From: Saprospiraceae bacterium | GTDB lineage: Bacteria > Bacteroidota > Bacteroidia > Chitinophagales > Saprospiraceae | DNA length: 64,000 nucleotides | NCBI GenBank assembly: GCA_020627535.1 | Contig: JAHDGU010000012.1 | Location: 62,001 to 126,000, forward strand | Direction: 5' to 3' | Part shown: one piece after another, positions 54,162 to 61,142 of the stretch | How the letters are laid out: each line of letters begins with the position of its first letter | How positions within the stretch are numbered: the stretch's first letter is position 1 | Notes under the pieces: generated by a model | Told to the model about the DNA's origin: nothing | What the model saw: the letters and a program-made list of their open reading frames with translations, nothing else | Databases searched by the model: none | Position numbers and translations under genes: made by a program

Positions 54162-54566
54162 ATGTCCATTGCGAGCTACGAATCTAAGTTGTCAGATACA
54201 TTTGAATTGATGCTTATGTCTAGAGAGGGCTTATCAATCGAGCTATTTGTCCAGATTATGTCGTCAAGTCCTTACACACTCAAGCAATGGAGCCAGTTTC
54301 TTCACCTTACGGAGCGAACCATTCAGAGATACAAGAAAGAAGGGCAGAAGTTTGAAGCTCTACAAAGTGAGAGAATCATGGAGATTTCTCGCTTGAGATT
54401 CTATGGTTCAAAGGTATTTGGCTCTGACCGCTTATTTGACGAATGGATGAATTCGAAGATCGTTTCTTTAAGAAATGTGAGACCTGTAACTCTTCTTGAT
54501 AGCTCCTTCGGAATTGATATGATCTATGACACGCTAGGACGTATCGAACATGGCATATTGGCATGA
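54162..54566 (+). CDS. Xre/MbcA/ParS-type antitoxin
   Basis: The 134-residue protein has an N-terminal helix-turn-helix-like region (about 40-75, LKQWSQFLHLTERTIQRYKK) and a DUF2384/MbcA-ParS C-terminal domain (about 75-134) with SKVFGSDRLFDEWMNSK and DTLGRIEHGILA. It pairs with the RES toxin downstream (4 bp overlap, ATGA). It should neutralise the toxin and repress its own promoter through the twin operators. Confidence 0.88.
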   Translation: MSIASYESKLSDTFELMLMSREGLSIELFVQIMSSSPYTLKQWSQFLHLTERTIQRYKKEGQKFEALQSERIMEISRLRFYGSKVFGSDRLFDEWMNSKIVSLRNVRPVTLLDSSFGIDMIYDTLGRIEHGILA

Positions 54567-55021
54567 GGGTTTATTGCTTGACCGGCTTGCGGTACAAGAA
54601 TCAATTGAGTGGTAAGGGGGCTGAAATCTTTGGTGGTCGTTGGAATAGTAAGGGAGTATCAATGGTATATACCAGTGAGAGCAGAGCATTATGCACTGCC
54701 GAAGTTGCAGTGCACGTTCCATTTGGTGTACTTCCCAAGCAGTATTATCTACAGACAATTGAACTGCCGGATCAGTTTATCTTGACACTTAATGAGGATG
54801 CTCTTGGTCAGGACTGGCGGAGTTTTCCGCATCTGCCGAGCACAAAGCGCGTTGGCGACGATTTCGTAAAAAAAAGCAAGTACATGTCACTGAAAGTCCC
54901 TTCAGCCATCGTGCAAGATGAGTACAACTATTTGATCAATGATCAGCACCAAGATTTCCCTCTTGTCAAGCTCATGATGGTAGAGGAATTTCGATTTGAT
55001 CATCGACTCTTTAGAAAGTAG
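54563..55021 (+). CDS. RES-family toxin (NAD+ phosphorylase type)
   Basis: The 152-residue protein has the RES signature residues: Arg26 in GGRWNSKG, Tyr36 in MVYTSES, Glu47 in LCTAEVAVH and Ser114 in VPSAIVQDEYNYLIN. Related toxins (MbcT, Rv1989c-type) degrade NAD+ by phosphorolysis. Together with the upstream antitoxin it forms a complete type II RES-Xre system. It converges on the TetR gene. Confidence 0.9.
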   Translation: MRVYCLTGLRYKNQLSGKGAEIFGGRWNSKGVSMVYTSESRALCTAEVAVHVPFGVLPKQYYLQTIELPDQFILTLNEDALGQDWRSFPHLPSTKRVGDDFVKKSKYMSLKVPSAIVQDEYNYLINDQHQDFPLVKLMMVEEFRFDHRLFRK

Positions 55022-55036
55022 CTAAGCAGTATATTT

Positions 55037-55714
55037 TCAACCCTTTAGCGCTGAGAGCATCAAATGATTAGCGATCTTTTCGAGACGTTGTTTTGGTGCA
55101 TCACTGTAGTCTATGTCAGATAGCCTCGGTAAGTGCTCAGCATAGTAAAGCTGATTGGTGCACATCTCAAAAACTGTGGTACAAAGCGTTCTAGGATAAG
55201 GAAATTTGGGGTTGAGCTGAAGGGCAATTTCAGCAAGCCGCTTGATCATCTGCTTGTATGGCATGAAAAGCCCATGAGCATTCTCCTCGTCGATGTCGTG
55301 GATGTGATAAGACTTGGAGCTCTCTTTCATCATGATCTGCCGTAGCTTTTGCGCATCTATGTAATCCGTCGTTTCTGATTCGTCTGAGGCGTAGATAAGG
55401 CAGTGTATAGCTCGTCGGAGCCGCTCCTCTGGATCATCAATATTGAGCGTGCGCCGCTCCATGAGATAGTTAATCCACTCCCAGTACCAGCAGTTCAGAT
55501 ACAAGAGCAATAGATGCTTATTGGTAAAGTATCTGTAGATGGACACCTCTGAAGAGCCCATGTGCTCAGCACATTTTTTGAAGGTGAATGCCTCAAATCC
55601 GATCGAGTCCATGAGCGCAATGGCAGATGCCAAGAGTCTCTTTCCAAAGGATGTTTCCTGTGGATCTCTCAAGTACAGTTTGTCGGGAAGGAGAAATTTA
55701 AATTCCAAGGACAT
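55037..55714 (-). CDS. TetR-family transcriptional repressor
   Basis: The 225-residue regulator has an N-terminal helix-turn-helix (LLASAIALMDSIGFEAFTFKKCAEHM, given in pieces, about 27-75; SSEVSIYRYFTNKHLLL) and a C-terminal helical ligand domain. It diverges from the exporter operon starting at 55997; an identical 15 bp element occurs in both halves of the divergent region. It is the likely repressor of that operon, released by an unknown ligand. Confidence 0.92.
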   Translation of the reverse strand: MSLEFKFLLPDKLYLRDPQETSFGKRLLASAIALMDSIGFEAFTFKKCAEHMGSSEVSIYRYFTNKHLLLLYLNCWYWEWINYLMERRTLNIDDPEERLRRAIHCLIYASDESETTDYIDAQKLRQIMMKESSKSYHIHDIDEENAHGLFMPYKQMIKRLAEIALQLNPKFPYPRTLCTTVFEMCTNQLYYAEHLPRLSDIDYSDAPKQRLEKIANHLMLSALKG

Positions 55715-55996: not shown

Positions 55997-56275
55997 ATGA
56001 AGATCGTCATCAATAATGCGGCAAAAATTACCAAGAGACCTATACGCTGGCTACGCTGGAAATGCTATCAGCACATGGCGAAGTTTAGAGACATCGACTA
56101 TCTCGAGGTGCATATCCAAGCACATGGTCAACAGCCGACTACCTACTCGGCGGTGGCAAAGCTCGGGGTGCCGGGTCATGACTTGATCGTCAAGACCAAA
56201 AGTGAGCAAGCTACGAGTCTTACCAAGGACTTGTTTGATTCGATACTAAGGGCAGTGCGACGAAATCGCAAGTAA
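55997..56275 (+). CDS. HPF/RaiA-like small protein
   Basis: The 92-residue basic protein has a pattern like short HPF ribosome-associated proteins: a first strand and helix (MKIVINNAAKI...LRWKCYQHMAKF), strands YLEVHIQAH, YSAVAKLGVPGHDLIVKTKS and a C-terminal helix ending RAVRRNRK. Similarity is distant, so a ribosome role is tentative. It is the first gene of the TetR-controlled exporter operon, an unexpected place for an HPF. Confidence 0.6.
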   Translation: MKIVINNAAKITKRPIRWLRWKCYQHMAKFRDIDYLEVHIQAHGQQPTTYSAVAKLGVPGHDLIVKTKSEQATSLTKDLFDSILRAVRRNRK

Positions 56276-56315: not shown

Positions 56316-57962
56316 ATGAACACACCGATCCAGCGATTTCGTCGCCTGCTTCGCGTTGATCGCAAGGACATCACTCAGGTGTATGTCTATGCATTATTCA
56401 ACGGAGTCGTCAATCTGTCCTTACCCCTTGGTATCCAAGCCATCGTCAATCTCATACAGGGTGGCGAAGTGTCCACTTCATGGATGATTCTCGTGGCATT
56501 TGTCATCGGAGGGATAGCACTTACAGGCATCCTGCAGTTGTTACAGCTGCGGATCGTGGAAAACATTGCCCAAAAGATATTTAGCAGAGCCTCTTTTGAG
56601 TTTGCTTATCGCATACCCAATATTCAATACGGTGCACTGCACAACTACTACGCGCCAGAACTAGCCAATCGATTTTTTGATACGATGACGATCCAAAAAG
56701 GATTGCCCAAGATTTTGATTGACTTTAGCTTGGCGCTCTTCCAGATTGTCGTAGGACTCCTGCTTTTGAGTTTTTACCATTCCTTCTTTATCATTTTCAG
56801 TTTTCTGTTGCTGATCTTGATCTGTTTGATTTTCCTTCTCACAGGGCCGGTGGGCCTACGTACGAGTCTCCAGGAGTCTAAGTTCAAGTACAAGATTGCC
56901 TTCTGGCTCGAAGAGATAGCGCGTACCAAGCTGTCTTTCAAACTAGTGGCCAATTCAGACCTCAACCTTCAGACCTCAGACTATCATGTCAATAACTACC
57001 TTGACTCACGGGAGCAGCACTTTCGTGTTCTCATCAGGCAAGGGCTATACCTTATAGGATTCAAAGTCATTATTGCCGCCGGTCTGCTTATCACAGGAAG
57101 TATTCTTGTATTCAATGAGCAGATGAATATCGGTCAGTTTGTCGCCGCAGAGATCATCATCATATTGATCATCTCATCTGTCGAGAAACTCATCAAGTCG
57201 ATGGACAGTATCTATGATGTGCTGACGGCTTTGGAGAAGATTGGTTATGTCACGGACATGCCGCTTGACAGTGATGAGGGCATGGATCTCGGAAGCTTTG
57301 AGCAGGGTATAGACATCTCTATAGATTCCGTGCGCTTTCAGCACCAAGACTCTGCAGAGGATACGCTCTGTGGCCTATCTCTCGATATACCTGCCGAGGA
57401 GTCAGTCTTCATCACAGGTCCATCGAGTGCAGGAAAATCTACCCTACTGCAGCTTCTCTCTCGGGTCATTGATCCCAAGTCAGGGGTGATCAGATTTAAC
57501 GGCCTTCCGGCCAAAAGTCTCAGCCTAGAGGCACTGCGCAGCCATATAGGTTACGCCCTCAGCAACAATGATATCTTCCAAGGCACTGTCATGGAAAACA
57601 TCACCATGAATCGACCAGAAGCTACAGCGGAAAATATCAAGCTAGCCATCGAGATCACAGGACTTGATAAGTACCTCAGTACGGCACCCATGGGTCTCAA
57701 AACCTTGCTTGACCCAGAGGGGAGTACGATTCCGCGCAATATCAAAAATCGCATCATCCTCGCTAGGGCTATCGTGACGATGCCTACCAGATTGATACTA
57801 GAAGATCCACTTGATCACGTCAATCATGAGGAGAAAGAAGAGATCATCAGGAAGCTGACATCAGCTGGTAGACCATGGAAAATCGTCGTGACCAGCGTCG
57901 ATATGCTGTGGAAGAAGTACACAGACAGAACTTATAATATACAGCAAGGCGTCATTGTCTGA
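56316..57962 (+). CDS. ABC exporter-type protein with degenerate nucleotide-binding domain
   Basis: The 548-residue protein has six membrane helices (about 25-300, ABC exporter fold without N-terminal peptidase) and an NBD (about 335-545). Walker A is intact (GPSSAGKST, about 368-376). Other motifs are lost: Q-loop YALSNNDIF (Gln absent), signature IPRNI in place of LSGGQ, Walker B LILED with the acidic order reversed, and Ser527 where the H-loop His should be. It is followed by HlyD, thioesterase and TolC genes, so it is the inner-membrane part of an export system, possibly with weak or no ATPase. Confidence 0.85.
   Translation: MNTPIQRFRRLLRVDRKDITQVYVYALFNGVVNLSLPLGIQAIVNLIQGGEVSTSWMILVAFVIGGIALTGILQLLQLRIVENIAQKIFSRASFEFAYRIPNIQYGALHNYYAPELANRFFDTMTIQKGLPKILIDFSLALFQIVVGLLLLSFYHSFFIIFSFLLLILICLIFLLTGPVGLRTSLQESKFKYKIAFWLEEIARTKLSFKLVANSDLNLQTSDYHVNNYLDSREQHFRVLIRQGLYLIGFKVIIAAGLLITGSILVFNEQMNIGQFVAAEIIIILIISSVEKLIKSMDSIYDVLTALEKIGYVTDMPLDSDEGMDLGSFEQGIDISIDSVRFQHQDSAEDTLCGLSLDIPAEESVFITGPSSAGKSTLLQLLSRVIDPKSGVIRFNGLPAKSLSLEALRSHIGYALSNNDIFQGTVMENITMNRPEATAENIKLAIEITGLDKYLSTAPMGLKTLLDPEGSTIPRNIKNRIILARAIVTMPTRLILEDPLDHVNHEEKEEIIRKLTSAGRPWKIVVTSVDMLWKKYTDRTYNIQQGVIV
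57501..57516 (-). repeat. GNRA hairpin motif copy
   Basis: On the minus strand TTTT-GGCC-GGAA-GGCC in the NBD-coding part of the ABC gene. Confidence 0.6.
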
Positions 57963-57982: not shown

Positions 57983-59353
57983 ATGCTCAATATAAGTCCA
58001 CAATCCATCAGTCACAAGGTAGAGCGCAATCGCTACCAGGCCTTCAATAAGCTAGAGAATAGATCAGTTTCCTCAGCTTTGGTTAAGGTCATTGTGATCG
58101 TCTTCTTGATATGTCTTTTTGGGATGTTCTTGCCCTGGACTCAAAACATACGCTCTTACGGCTATGTAACAGCTCTCAGTGCTCAAGATAGACCTCAAGA
58201 GGTACAGGCTATCGTAGGAGGTAGAATTGATCAATGGTTAGCCAACGAAGGTGACTTCGTCATGGCAGGAGATACCATTCTGCTGCTCTCAGAGGCCAAG
58301 GATGAATATCTCGATCCAGAAATTCAAGAACGCACGAAGGCACAGCGGGAGGCCAAGCTCGGCGCAGCAGAGTCATATTCTCAAAAAGCACAACAGATCT
58401 CCCAGCAGATCACAGCACTCAATCAAAACTTCGAGAACAAGCTTGCGCAAAATGAGCTTGCGATCCGACAGACTAAGTTGAAAATCAGCACAGATAGCCT
58501 AGAGCTCATTGCTGCTGAGCTTCTTGTACAAAACAGTGACAACCAATTCAAACGATCGCAGGAACTCTTTGAGAAGGGAATCAACTCCCGCACCGAACTT
58601 GAGCAGAAAAACAACAAGCTTCAGGATGCAATTGCCAAGACGCAGCTATACGAAAACAAGATACTCGAGCATCGTGCGGAGATCGAAAACTACAGACAAA
58701 AAGCCCAAGCACTAGAGGCTGAGCGAAGAGAAAAGGTCGCTAAGCTAAGAGGTGAGATCGCCAGTGCACAGAGTGATCAGTACACGGCCTTGGGTGAATC
58801 GGACAAGTTACAGTCTACGATCAACAAGCTCCAGCGACGTCAAGCATCCTTCGCAGTCATCGCTCCGATCAATGGATATGTGACCAAGGCTCTCGTCACT
58901 GGAATCGGGGAGTTGGTCAAAGGTGGTCAGGGTATCTGCACGATCATCCCAGCAGAGTACGACCTTGCAGTGGAGCTCTATGTACGACCGAGAGATATGC
59001 CACTCATCAAGAAGGGCAAACAGGTCAGAATCCTCTTTGATGGATGGCCTGCGATTGTATTCAGTGGCTGGCCAAACAACTCTTTCGGCACCTTTGAAGG
59101 TCAGGTCTACGCCATCGATAATGATATCAGTGACAATGGACTTTACCGCCTACTCGTCGTAGAATCCAATCCTGAGAAACCATGGCCAGAGGAGCTCCGC
59201 ATCGGTGGTGGTGCCAATGGGCTCCTGCTACTCAATCGTGTCCAAGTCTACTACGAGATCTGGCGACAGCTCAATGGATTTCCACCAGACTACTACGACG
59301 AGCCTATCGAAAAGGCCAAAAAATCTAAAGCGCCGATCCGAAAACTCAAGTAA
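57983..59353 (+). CDS. HlyD-family membrane-fusion protein
   Basis: The 456-residue adaptor has one N-terminal membrane helix (about 33-53), a lipoyl-like half (GGRIDQWLANEGDFVMAGDTIL, in pieces about 78-100), a long coiled coil (about 115-275) and a beta-barrel (INGYVTKALVTGIGELVKGG onward). It connects the inner-membrane ABC protein with the TolC homologue two genes later. Its stop overlaps the ATG of the thioesterase by one base. Confidence 0.93.
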   Translation: MLNISPQSISHKVERNRYQAFNKLENRSVSSALVKVIVIVFLICLFGMFLPWTQNIRSYGYVTALSAQDRPQEVQAIVGGRIDQWLANEGDFVMAGDTILLLSEAKDEYLDPEIQERTKAQREAKLGAAESYSQKAQQISQQITALNQNFENKLAQNELAIRQTKLKISTDSLELIAAELLVQNSDNQFKRSQELFEKGINSRTELEQKNNKLQDAIAKTQLYENKILEHRAEIENYRQKAQALEAERREKVAKLRGEIASAQSDQYTALGESDKLQSTINKLQRRQASFAVIAPINGYVTKALVTGIGELVKGGQGICTIIPAEYDLAVELYVRPRDMPLIKKGKQVRILFDGWPAIVFSGWPNNSFGTFEGQVYAIDNDISDNGLYRLLVVESNPEKPWPEELRIGGGANGLLLLNRVQVYYEIWRQLNGFPPDYYDEPIEKAKKSKAPIRKLK

Positions 59354-59745
59354 TGAAGTACTTCAGCAGAAAACTCATACGCCCAGCAGATCTCAATGCA
59401 AACGGTACACTATTCGGGGGTTCACTGCTCAAGTGGATCGATGAAGAGGCAAGTATCTATGCGATGAGTAAGCTCGAAAATCGTGGTGTCGTCACCAAGT
59501 TCATTTCCGAGATAGACTTTGTCAATAGCGCTGAGGCTGGAGATATCGTGGAGATAGGACTAGAGTTTGTAGCTATCGGAAGGACCTCCATTACTTTCAA
59601 GTGCAAGGCGCGATGTCTGTTCAGTAAGAAAGTCATCATCAGCATTGACAAGCTAGTGTTTGTTAAGATCAACGGCAGCGGAAGACCAGAGCCACATGGC
59701 AAGACGATTCACAATCTTGATTTAGCCCACAGAGAGTATTCTTGA
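59353..59745 (+). CDS. Acyl-CoA thioesterase of the YciA/BFIT hotdog type
   Basis: The 130-residue hotdog protein has the motif NANGTLFGGSLLKWIDEEASI (in pieces, about 15-35) that places the catalytic Asp, and the second block VNSAEAGDIVEIGLEFVAIGRTSITF. It hydrolyses acyl-CoAs. Its 4 bp overlap with the TolC gene and 1 bp overlap with hlyD put it within the exporter operon, hinting that the exported substance or its modification is acyl-linked. Confidence 0.88.
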   Translation: MKYFSRKLIRPADLNANGTLFGGSLLKWIDEEASIYAMSKLENRGVVTKFISEIDFVNSAEAGDIVEIGLEFVAIGRTSITFKCKARCLFSKKVIISIDKLVFVKINGSGRPEPHGKTIHNLDLAHREYS

Positions 59746-61142
59746 TGCTACGGACTTTATATACGATCTCCGCAGTCCTGATCTGTGCTATGACTATGTC
59801 TGCTCAGTCGGGCGACTTACTCAGCTACGAGCAGTACATCCGTCAAGTGCTCATGCATCATCCTGTGGCCATTCAGTATCAGATGCTCGATCGGCAGTCT
59901 GAGCTTTATAAACTCAAGGCAAGAGGTGAGTTTGACCCCAAGCTGGCAGCCTACTACGATGAGAAAGAGTTTAAAGCAGAAAACTACTATGAGACTTTTG
60001 ATGCGCAGTTGAGCGTGCCCACAGCGACGGGCATAGACTTTAAGCTAGGCTATGAGATGACAGATGGAGCGTTTCTGGATCCCAATCAAAGCCTTCCGGC
60101 AAATGGATTGATCAATATCGGTGCCGAACTACCATTGCTGCAAGGCCTGATGTTTGACGAGAGGAGGCAGGTCCTGCGCCAAGCGGAGTTGCTCATAGAG
60201 GGTAACGAAGTAAAGCAAAGAGAAGGCTTGGCCAAGATACAGTGGGAGGCATCCAAGGCATACCTTGACTGGCAAGTTGCCCAGCAGTCAGTGCTCATCA
60301 ATCTCACTGCAGAGGAGCTGGCAGAGATACGTCTGGAAAACGTGATTGTGAGCTTTCGCACCGGCGAAGGCAGAGGGATAGACACAGTAGAGGCCAAGGC
60401 TAATTTGCTCAATCGGCAGCAACTTGTTCAGGAGTCACAGCTCATTTTGGCGCAAGCCAGAAGACAAGTAGAGCTCTATCTCTGGGCCAATGGACTCCAG
60501 CCGCTTGTCCTAGATCCACAAGCCAAGGCACAAGCACTGCAGGCAGAGTCCGCAGAGGCTCTCTTGGTCGAGATCAGAGCCAACAAGGATTCACTTCTCC
60601 GCAGAGTGCCAGCTATCCAGAGTATCGATATCGAGCGCAGATCCCTCGAGATTGATGAGCGACTAGCGAAGCAATATATGCTTCCAGACCTCAGAGTCAA
60701 GTGGAATACGCTCGTCACACCAGGAAGTGAAAAGTCTGTTCTCTCCTCTGTCAATGACTACAAAGTAGGTGTGAGTCTCTCCTATCCGCTTCTCAATAGG
60801 AAGGCACGAGGTGAGCTAGCTCTCAATCGACTAGACCAAGAGATGCTCGCCAATGAAAGCGTCTTTGTACAACAGAGTACCGAGATCTTGCTAGATCAAT
60901 TGATGCTAGAGATCAGTTCGCTCGCAGAGCAGGTAAGAATCCTCCAAGTATCTGTCGCTGAGATGCAAAAACTTCTCGAAGCGGAGCAAATCAAATTTGA
61001 AATTGGGGAGAGCTCCATCTTCCTCGTTAACTCTCGAGAGCTGAAGCTGCTCGAGACACAAATCAAGCTGCTGAAACTGCAAAAAGATTACAGTCTAGCC
61101 ACCTTTGATATCCGAGGACTCCTTGCGCTCGACTGGATCTAG
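59742..61142 (+). CDS. TolC-family outer-membrane efflux protein
   Basis: The 466-residue protein has a signal peptide (LYTISAVLICAMTMSAQ) and two OEP repeats with long helices (about 60-230 and about 260-440; EEMLANES, QVRILQVSVAEMQKLLEAEQIKFEIGES in pieces). It is the outer-membrane channel of the exporter. It converges on the sugar-isomerase gene with a 4 bp overlap. Confidence 0.9.
   Translation: MMLRTLYTISAVLICAMTMSAQSGDLLSYEQYIRQVLMHHPVAIQYQMLDRQSELYKLKARGEFDPKLAAYYDEKEFKAENYYETFDAQLSVPTATGIDFKLGYEMTDGAFLDPNQSLPANGLINIGAELPLLQGLMFDERRQVLRQAELLIEGNEVKQREGLAKIQWEASKAYLDWQVAQQSVLINLTAEELAEIRLENVIVSFRTGEGRGIDTVEAKANLLNRQQLVQESQLILAQARRQVELYLWANGLQPLVLDPQAKAQALQAESAEALLVEIRANKDSLLRRVPAIQSIDIERRSLEIDERLAKQYMLPDLRVKWNTLVTPGSEKSVLSSVNDYKVGVSLSYPLLNRKARGELALNRLDQEMLANESVFVQQSTEILLDQLMLEISSLAEQVRILQVSVAEMQKLLEAEQIKFEIGESSIFLVNSRELKLLETQIKLLKLQKDYSLATFDIRGLLALDWI
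60091..60104 (-). repeat. GNRA hairpin motif copy
   Basis: On the minus strand ATTT-GCC-GGAA-GGC in the TolC gene. Confidence 0.5.
60445..60458 (+). repeat. GNRA hairpin motif copy
   Basis: TTTT-GGC-GCAA-GCC in the TolC gene, second copy within this gene and on the opposite strand from the first. Confidence 0.55.

Follow-up and report, generated by a model that had tools for sequence, protein, structure and literature searches.

We propose, with a probability of roughly 0.55, that the ABC gene described here encodes the inner-membrane component of a HlyD/TolC-type tripartite exporter in which ATP hydrolysis has been lost, the dimer of transmembrane domains (TMDs) is probably driven by ions, and the nucleotide-binding domain (NBD) has a structural or regulatory role. 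The gene lies in a window of 64,000 nucleotides, i.e., the whole stretch of DNA that was analyzed, and its features are collected in Table 1.

Table 1. Features of the exporter gene and of its neighbors in the window; fractions refer to related loci or to members of the family
Feature	Coordinates	Strand	Basis or remark
TetR-family regulator, divergent	55037..55714	-	TetR at most 2.5 kb upstream in 86/160 loci
ABC-exporter half-transporter with degenerate NBD	56316..57962	+	ATG start, 548 aa, ORF intact
Transmembrane domain of six long helices, aa 1-318; the part that the family conserves	56316..57269	+	AlphaFold2 model, conservation
Asp136 in TM3	56721..56723	+	acidic in 233/235 members; controls without conserved acid there
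Lys250 in TM5	57063..57065	+	basic in 232/235 members; controls Asn/Ser/Thr or Gly
Glu279 in TM6, candidate ion-coupling residue	57150..57152	+	acidic in 234/235 members; controls Gln or Ile/Leu
Degenerate nucleotide-binding domain, aa 332-548	57309..57959	+	Pfam, phmmer alignment
Walker A GPSSAGKST, aa 368-376, intact	57417..57443	+	phmmer alignment
Q-loop position, Ser416 replaces Gln	57561..57563	+	phmmer alignment
Signature position, IPRNI (aa 472-476) replaces LSGGQ	57729..57743	+	phmmer alignment
Walker B Asp and catalytic Glu positions, Glu496-Asp497	57801..57806	+	phmmer alignment
Switch-His position, Val528	57897..57899	+	phmmer alignment
HlyD-type periplasmic adaptor, 456 aa	57983..59353	+	next gene in 143/147 related loci with room
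4HBT thioesterase inserted between HlyD and TolC	59353..59745	+	in 11/160 related loci
TolC-type outer-membrane efflux protein	59742..61142	+	HlyD and TolC in 141/147 loci with room

Architecture of the protein and state of its ATP site

The AlphaFold2 model of the protein (pLDDT 87.7) has the full exporter fold, with a six-helix TMD fused to an NBD. Its structural matches are headed by TmrAB chain B and include HlyB, PrtD, and PCAT1 (Z 27-29); with TmrAB chain B and HlyB the model aligns across 543-544 of its 548 residues at a Z of about 29. The six-helix TMD plus NBD that defines an ABC exporter of the type IV fold is thus present, both in the model and in the full-length matches. The protein scores 59 bits with PF00005 (cut-off 25) and 25.8 bits with PF00664, slightly below the cut-off of 28. 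In the same Pfam scan, ABC_membrane was the sole membrane-domain family at E ≤0.001 and the SbmA family was not matched.

The phmmer alignment with P-glycoprotein (search against the PDB) is free of gaps through every NBD motif, and Walker A is the only one that is intact. The first-pass annotation of this DNA had read a retained Walker A, IPRNI in place of LSGGQ, and ED in place of DE, and the alignment bears out all these readings. It had also reported the loss of the Q-loop Gln and of the switch His, which is confirmed, but it placed the former only near 414, the exact position being Ser416, and the latter at Ser527, one residue away from Val528. A shift of the motifs, which it had named as a finding that would overturn its view, is ruled out by the gap-free alignment, by the structural match, and by the recurrence of the changes in relatives. 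A competent catalytic ATP site is composed of Walker A and B, Q-loop, signature, Glu, and His, and the sequence of the protein does not contain this set. At the sequence level, the loss of catalysis in this protein is well supported, and the expectation that a homodimer would hydrolyze ATP poorly is strongly supported and extends to the whole family, whose members very probably have no normal ATPase activity.

Genes around the exporter

The HlyD adaptor and the TolC channel that characterize tripartite or type 1 secretion systems are both found in the operon. The gene order was surveyed in 160 related loci with flanks, 147 of which have more than 3.5 kb downstream; the exceptions to the HlyD/TolC order are L150, L152, L158, L176, L221, and L232, although a separate ORF mapping showed L158 to have a TolC ORF as well as a HlyD ORF that overlaps. 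The 4HBT thioesterase is hinting at an acyl substrate.

Further upstream, a Xre/MbcA/ParS-type antitoxin (134 aa) and a RES-domain toxin (152 aa) are encoded at 54162-55021 and are likely a toxin-antitoxin pair. Just 5' of the ABC gene, at 55997-56275, there is a conserved 92-aa protein that matched no Pfam or NCBIfam family and whose relatives have a similar position in several loci of Saprospiraceae.

Occurrence of the family and decay of its motifs

Among 60 genomes (its own and relatives), the orthologous group comprises 38 rows in 38 genomes at 296 bits or more, with ordinary exporters scoring at most 112 bits. A full-length profile search of 395 genomes from the phylum found a member in 97, and a TMD profile search of 395 genomes from the class found one in 196. 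The carriers include Saprospiraceae MAGs, Lewinella, Polaribacter, Maribacter, Aquimarina, Tenacibaculum, Winogradskyella, and Flavobacterium; the best matches to our protein are from Saprospiraceae MAGs (60-65% identity), and no relative was found in the viral contigs searched. Five of seven plasmid-borne relatives are annotated as "ABC transporter ATP-binding protein", a name that may mislead for a common Bacteroidota exporter.

To compare the motifs we have used 237 non-redundant proteins from 250 loci that were best-ranked or hand-chosen and hence are not a random sample; L029 (a normal 577-aa NBD-bearing member) and L211 (cut by a contig end) were left out of the motif table. The motif count covers the 225 relatives with an NBD and a full TMD, one NBD-bearing row with a short TMD being omitted. 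The Walker A Lys is present in 212 of them, the Q-loop Gln in 8, a consensus-like signature in 4, and the catalytic Glu together with the switch His in 14, while in 147 the Walker A Lys is the only one left of the six key features. Across the 237 rows, the Walker B/catalytic pair is most commonly ED (102), with KD in 26, DE in 23, and other pairs as well. The members that have DE together with His belong mostly to a single clade of longer proteins, referred to below as the DE-and-His clade. Many longer members (about 690-830 aa; e.g., L147, L134, and L149) bear an N-terminal extension of 130-250 aa, in which no Pfam match was found in these three members, and which is perhaps a decayed C39-like domain.

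The tree was a quick one of 93 representatives out of 234, with SH-aLRT as the only support. The P-loop is wholly destroyed in 8 of its 84 NBD-bearing rows, which amounts to six changes on the TMD tree, and the loss of the Walker A Lys alone amounts to about nine. These parsimony counts are without direction; we read them as losses and not gains because catalysis is ancestral to ABC proteins, the branch that attaches the PCAT-type outgroup being very long (5 on either side). In L167 and L237 there is a C-terminus of NBD length in which the P-loop has been replaced altogether.

Members without an NBD

Nine relatives (L141-L146 and L212-L214) end directly after the TMD, at 332-339 aa. They form one clade (SH-aLRT 99), i.e., one change on the tree, and in all nine loci the HlyD and then the TolC genes are found downstream of the TMD gene. 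In the six mapped loci there is no room for an NBD remnant, because the HlyD ORF, if its earliest start is assumed, shares 8 bases with the TMD gene (L142-L145) or begins after a gap of 34 (L141) or 66 bases (L146). The absence is not caused by assembly breaks, because L141 and L145 are on contigs of 7.0 and 4.3 Mb, respectively. In the stretch examined, another NBD gene is present in two of the nine loci, several kb distant. A relocated NBD of the family type was not found among the matches listed when the nine whole genomes were searched with the NBD of the nearest relative; the best match, a frame of ordinary exporter length, scored 101 bits versus 500 bits for the NBD-bearing relative itself. 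As far as sequences can tell, the NBD is dispensable in this lineage.

The TMDs of these nine proteins are also informative about the members that have an NBD. Residues R203, F208, and K209 are conserved in 93-96% of the NBD-bearing members, and each of them is kept in at most one of the nine NBD-less ones, in which none of the 15 conserved positions of stretch 101-135 has been lost. The three residues sit near a short helix (205-210) of the AlphaFold2 model, a region that we take, from exporter anatomy, to be coupling helix 2. They fade only where the NBD is missing, and therefore the dead NBD probably still docks on the TMD in members that have one.

Conservation of the two domains

In 30 of the 38 orthologues, the mean pairwise identity is 58.4% for the TMD and 36.2% for the NBD, and the NBD is the better conserved domain in none of 435 pairs. 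Two control families from the same genomes, in both of which consensus NBD motifs were found, have the opposite pattern: 49.2% (TMD) and 60.3% (NBD) for an MsbA-like control (30 rows; NBD better in 413 of 435 pairs), and 55.1% and 62.6% for a PCAT-type control (23 rows; 241 of 253 pairs). In the wider set, the pairs in which the NBD is the better conserved domain number 1 of 21,736 among derived members (209 rows) and 37 of 136 in the DE-and-His clade (17 rows), an intermediate state.

The NBD dN exceeds that of the TMD in 30 of 30 close pairs, and the median dN/dS, calculated for the 23 pairs in which both dS values are below 2, is 0.075 for the NBD and 0.037 for the TMD. Judged by these ratios, the NBD is under purifying selection and does not drift freely. 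A sequencing error or a decaying pseudogene is ruled out, since the changes are common to relatives and the domain is under this selection.

Transmembrane charges

Apart from the residues in Table 1, position 290 (E290) is acidic in 234 of 235 members, and positions 132 and 291 are basic in 232 and 231 of 235, respectively. The signs of the charges at 132, 136, 250, 279, 290, and 291 are not shared by the two control families. An acid ladder in the TMD is a mark of proton-driven SbmA/BacA-like transporters; the acids of the family that may be compared with it are D136, E279, and E290. However, with TM spans set by hand from the AlphaFold2 helix bounds, the family has 6 conserved TM charges, against 3 for the PCAT-type control and 6 for the MsbA-like one, and the TM acids are also found in the DE-and-His clade, so that they do not track the decay of the NBD. 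As a proof of ion coupling, the acids are weakened by both observations.

Search for a partner NBD

The first-pass annotation had also considered that the protein might work with another NBD, a suggestion that found no support, as none is linked, a search of its own genome found no second member of the TMD family, and the signature is lost. A linked partner ABC gene was not found at the 160 related loci with flanks, and canonical-type NBD ORFs occur at 20 of them. Large ABC-like ORFs lie directly upstream in L156, L157, L159, and L180, all of them loci of the DE-and-His clade, and at first resembled adjacent heterodimer partners, a reading that was set aside when the one scanned with Pfam, that of L157, turned out to be UvrA. 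The ORFs of L156 and L159 are similar to it in length and place, and that of L180 is truncated by the end of the contig. Upstream of L152 and L177 there are RecG-like genes. As described in an excerpt of PMC7756269, one half contributes the Walker motifs to an ATP site and the opposite half contributes the signature, and the degenerate halves of heterodimeric exporters keep the signature, so that one consensus site remains. A canonical partner would give no consensus site here, because the signature of the window protein is lost too.

Proposed mechanism and alternatives

In the mechanism that we propose, the TMD dimer would still alternate between inward-open and outward-open states, would draw its energy from an ion gradient (secondary transport), as SbmA does and as NBD-deleted MsbA and LmrA are reported to do, and would hand its substrate over to HlyD/TolC. 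The retained NBD would dock on the coupling helices and would bind ATP without burning it, as a stabilizing or regulatory part; with the signature lost, ATP would be unable to clamp the two NBDs shut and lock the pump. The signature may have been lost along with catalysis because a dead full-length NBD with a signature would lock the pump, as the comparison with an MsbA mutant suggests. According to a portion of PMC4979069, ethidium was exported in cells by the NBD-deleted form of MsbA but not by a full-length mutant with a dead ATPase; a dead attached NBD can therefore block transport, which also counts against the ion-driven reading.

That the members of the family are active transporters is likely, and that they are driven by ions is evenly balanced. 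Somewhat more tentatively, a little short of even odds, the family might record how, in nature and step by step, an ATP-driven exporter became a secondary (ion-driven) transporter within a HlyD/TolC machine, apart from the SbmA lineage and with all its stages extant, i.e., near-canonical NBD, dead NBD, shattered P-loop, and absent NBD.

The purifying selection on the NBD and the presence of the Walker A Lys in 212 of 225 relatives argue that most members still need the domain, and perhaps its binding of nucleotide. The first-pass idea of ATP as a structural or regulatory switch agrees with most NBD-bearing members; it does not cover the family as a whole, which has lost the Lys about nine times and has one clade without the NBD. 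The selection and the retained Lys, together with the HlyD/TolC order kept in 141 of 147 loci, would also suit a non-transporting or passively gated assembly, in which the TMD dimer would serve HlyD/TolC as a scaffold or ligand-gated channel, with ATP binding, in members that have it, as the regulatory switch. We consider this unlikely, since the NBD-less members and the repeated Walker A loss are unexplained if ATP is the switch, and the full six-helix exporter TMD is strongly conserved.

It is more improbable that the protein is a slow or unorthodox ATPase in which Glu496-Asp497 takes over the role of Asp-Glu and export is still powered by ATP. ED is certainly the commonest pair of the family, and Asp at the catalytic position is a conservative change common in degenerate sites (PMC7756269, in part), so that slow hydrolysis could persist; but KD, DE, and other pairs occur as well, the signature, Q-loop, and His are also lost, one clade has no NBD, and the NBD diverges faster than the TMD. 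Least probable, by a shade, is energization in trans by an unlinked canonical half-exporter or, in NBD-less members, by a recruited free NBD (multitasking ATPase): heterodimers with one degenerate site are common (passages of the review PMC7756269) and other ABC exporters are present in the genomes, but an ATP site also requires the signature from the opposite half (same passages), consensus-like in only 4 of 225 relatives, the genome of our protein has no second TMD-family copy, canonical-type NBD ORFs are found at only 20 of 160 loci, and the adjacent L157 ORF is UvrA.

Comparison with known systems

The window protein resembles the type 1 secretion ABC transporters (HlyB, PrtD, and PCAT1) in its fold and in its HlyD/TolC operon, and it differs from them in the loss of the catalytic motifs. 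No NCBIfam model of a type 1 secretion permease/ATPase reached its cut-off with the window protein (LssB, 140 bits versus 693). An NHLM-type system was also rejected, the best NCBIfam match being the NHLM bacteriocin exporter ABC2 (TIGR03797) with 161 bits for a cut-off of 709.

With the heterodimeric exporters (TmrAB, TM287/288, and TAP) the protein shares the change of Glu to Asp in a degenerate Walker B and the loss of the switch His. Heterodimeric exporters with one degenerate site retain one consensus site, and the signature is kept in the degenerate half. In contrast, the window protein has IPRNI at the signature, no consensus site is possible, and no partner was found at the related loci, nor a second copy of its TMD family in its own genome.

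SbmA is a natural ABC-exporter-like TMD that lacks an NBD and is run by protons, and an origin by NBD loss from full-length ABC transporters has been proposed for SbmA/BacA (SbmA-like peptide transporters, SLiPT) (excerpt of PMC13316013). The likeness is that of an ABC-exporter-like TMD dimer that works without an NBD, nine relatives of our protein being NBD-less, whereas SbmA imports peptides and is described in the same excerpt as having no coupling helices (PMC13316013). Unlike SbmA/BacA, the window protein keeps a dead NBD, and intermediates survive in its family. To our knowledge, SbmA has no HlyD or TolC partners.

In the open-licence literature we have found no description of this exporter family or of a natural NBD-less exporter linked to HlyD/TolC. 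The support so far found for ion-gradient pumping by ABC-exporter TMDs consists of SbmA and of laboratory truncations of MsbA and LmrA. In MsbA-MD and LmrA-MD, the TMD left after deletion of the NBD is reported to transport on a proton gradient (parts of PMC4979069 and PMC6155054), and it is the same deletion that is observed in the NBD-less relatives; the former are engineered truncations, whereas here we have a natural lineage. The family is a natural test set: it is present in many genomes, its partners are conserved, and NBD-bearing members have close relatives that lack the domain. Its parts are all of known kinds, and what seems to be new is an NBD that is dead across the family and absent from one clade in an exporter linked to HlyD/TolC.
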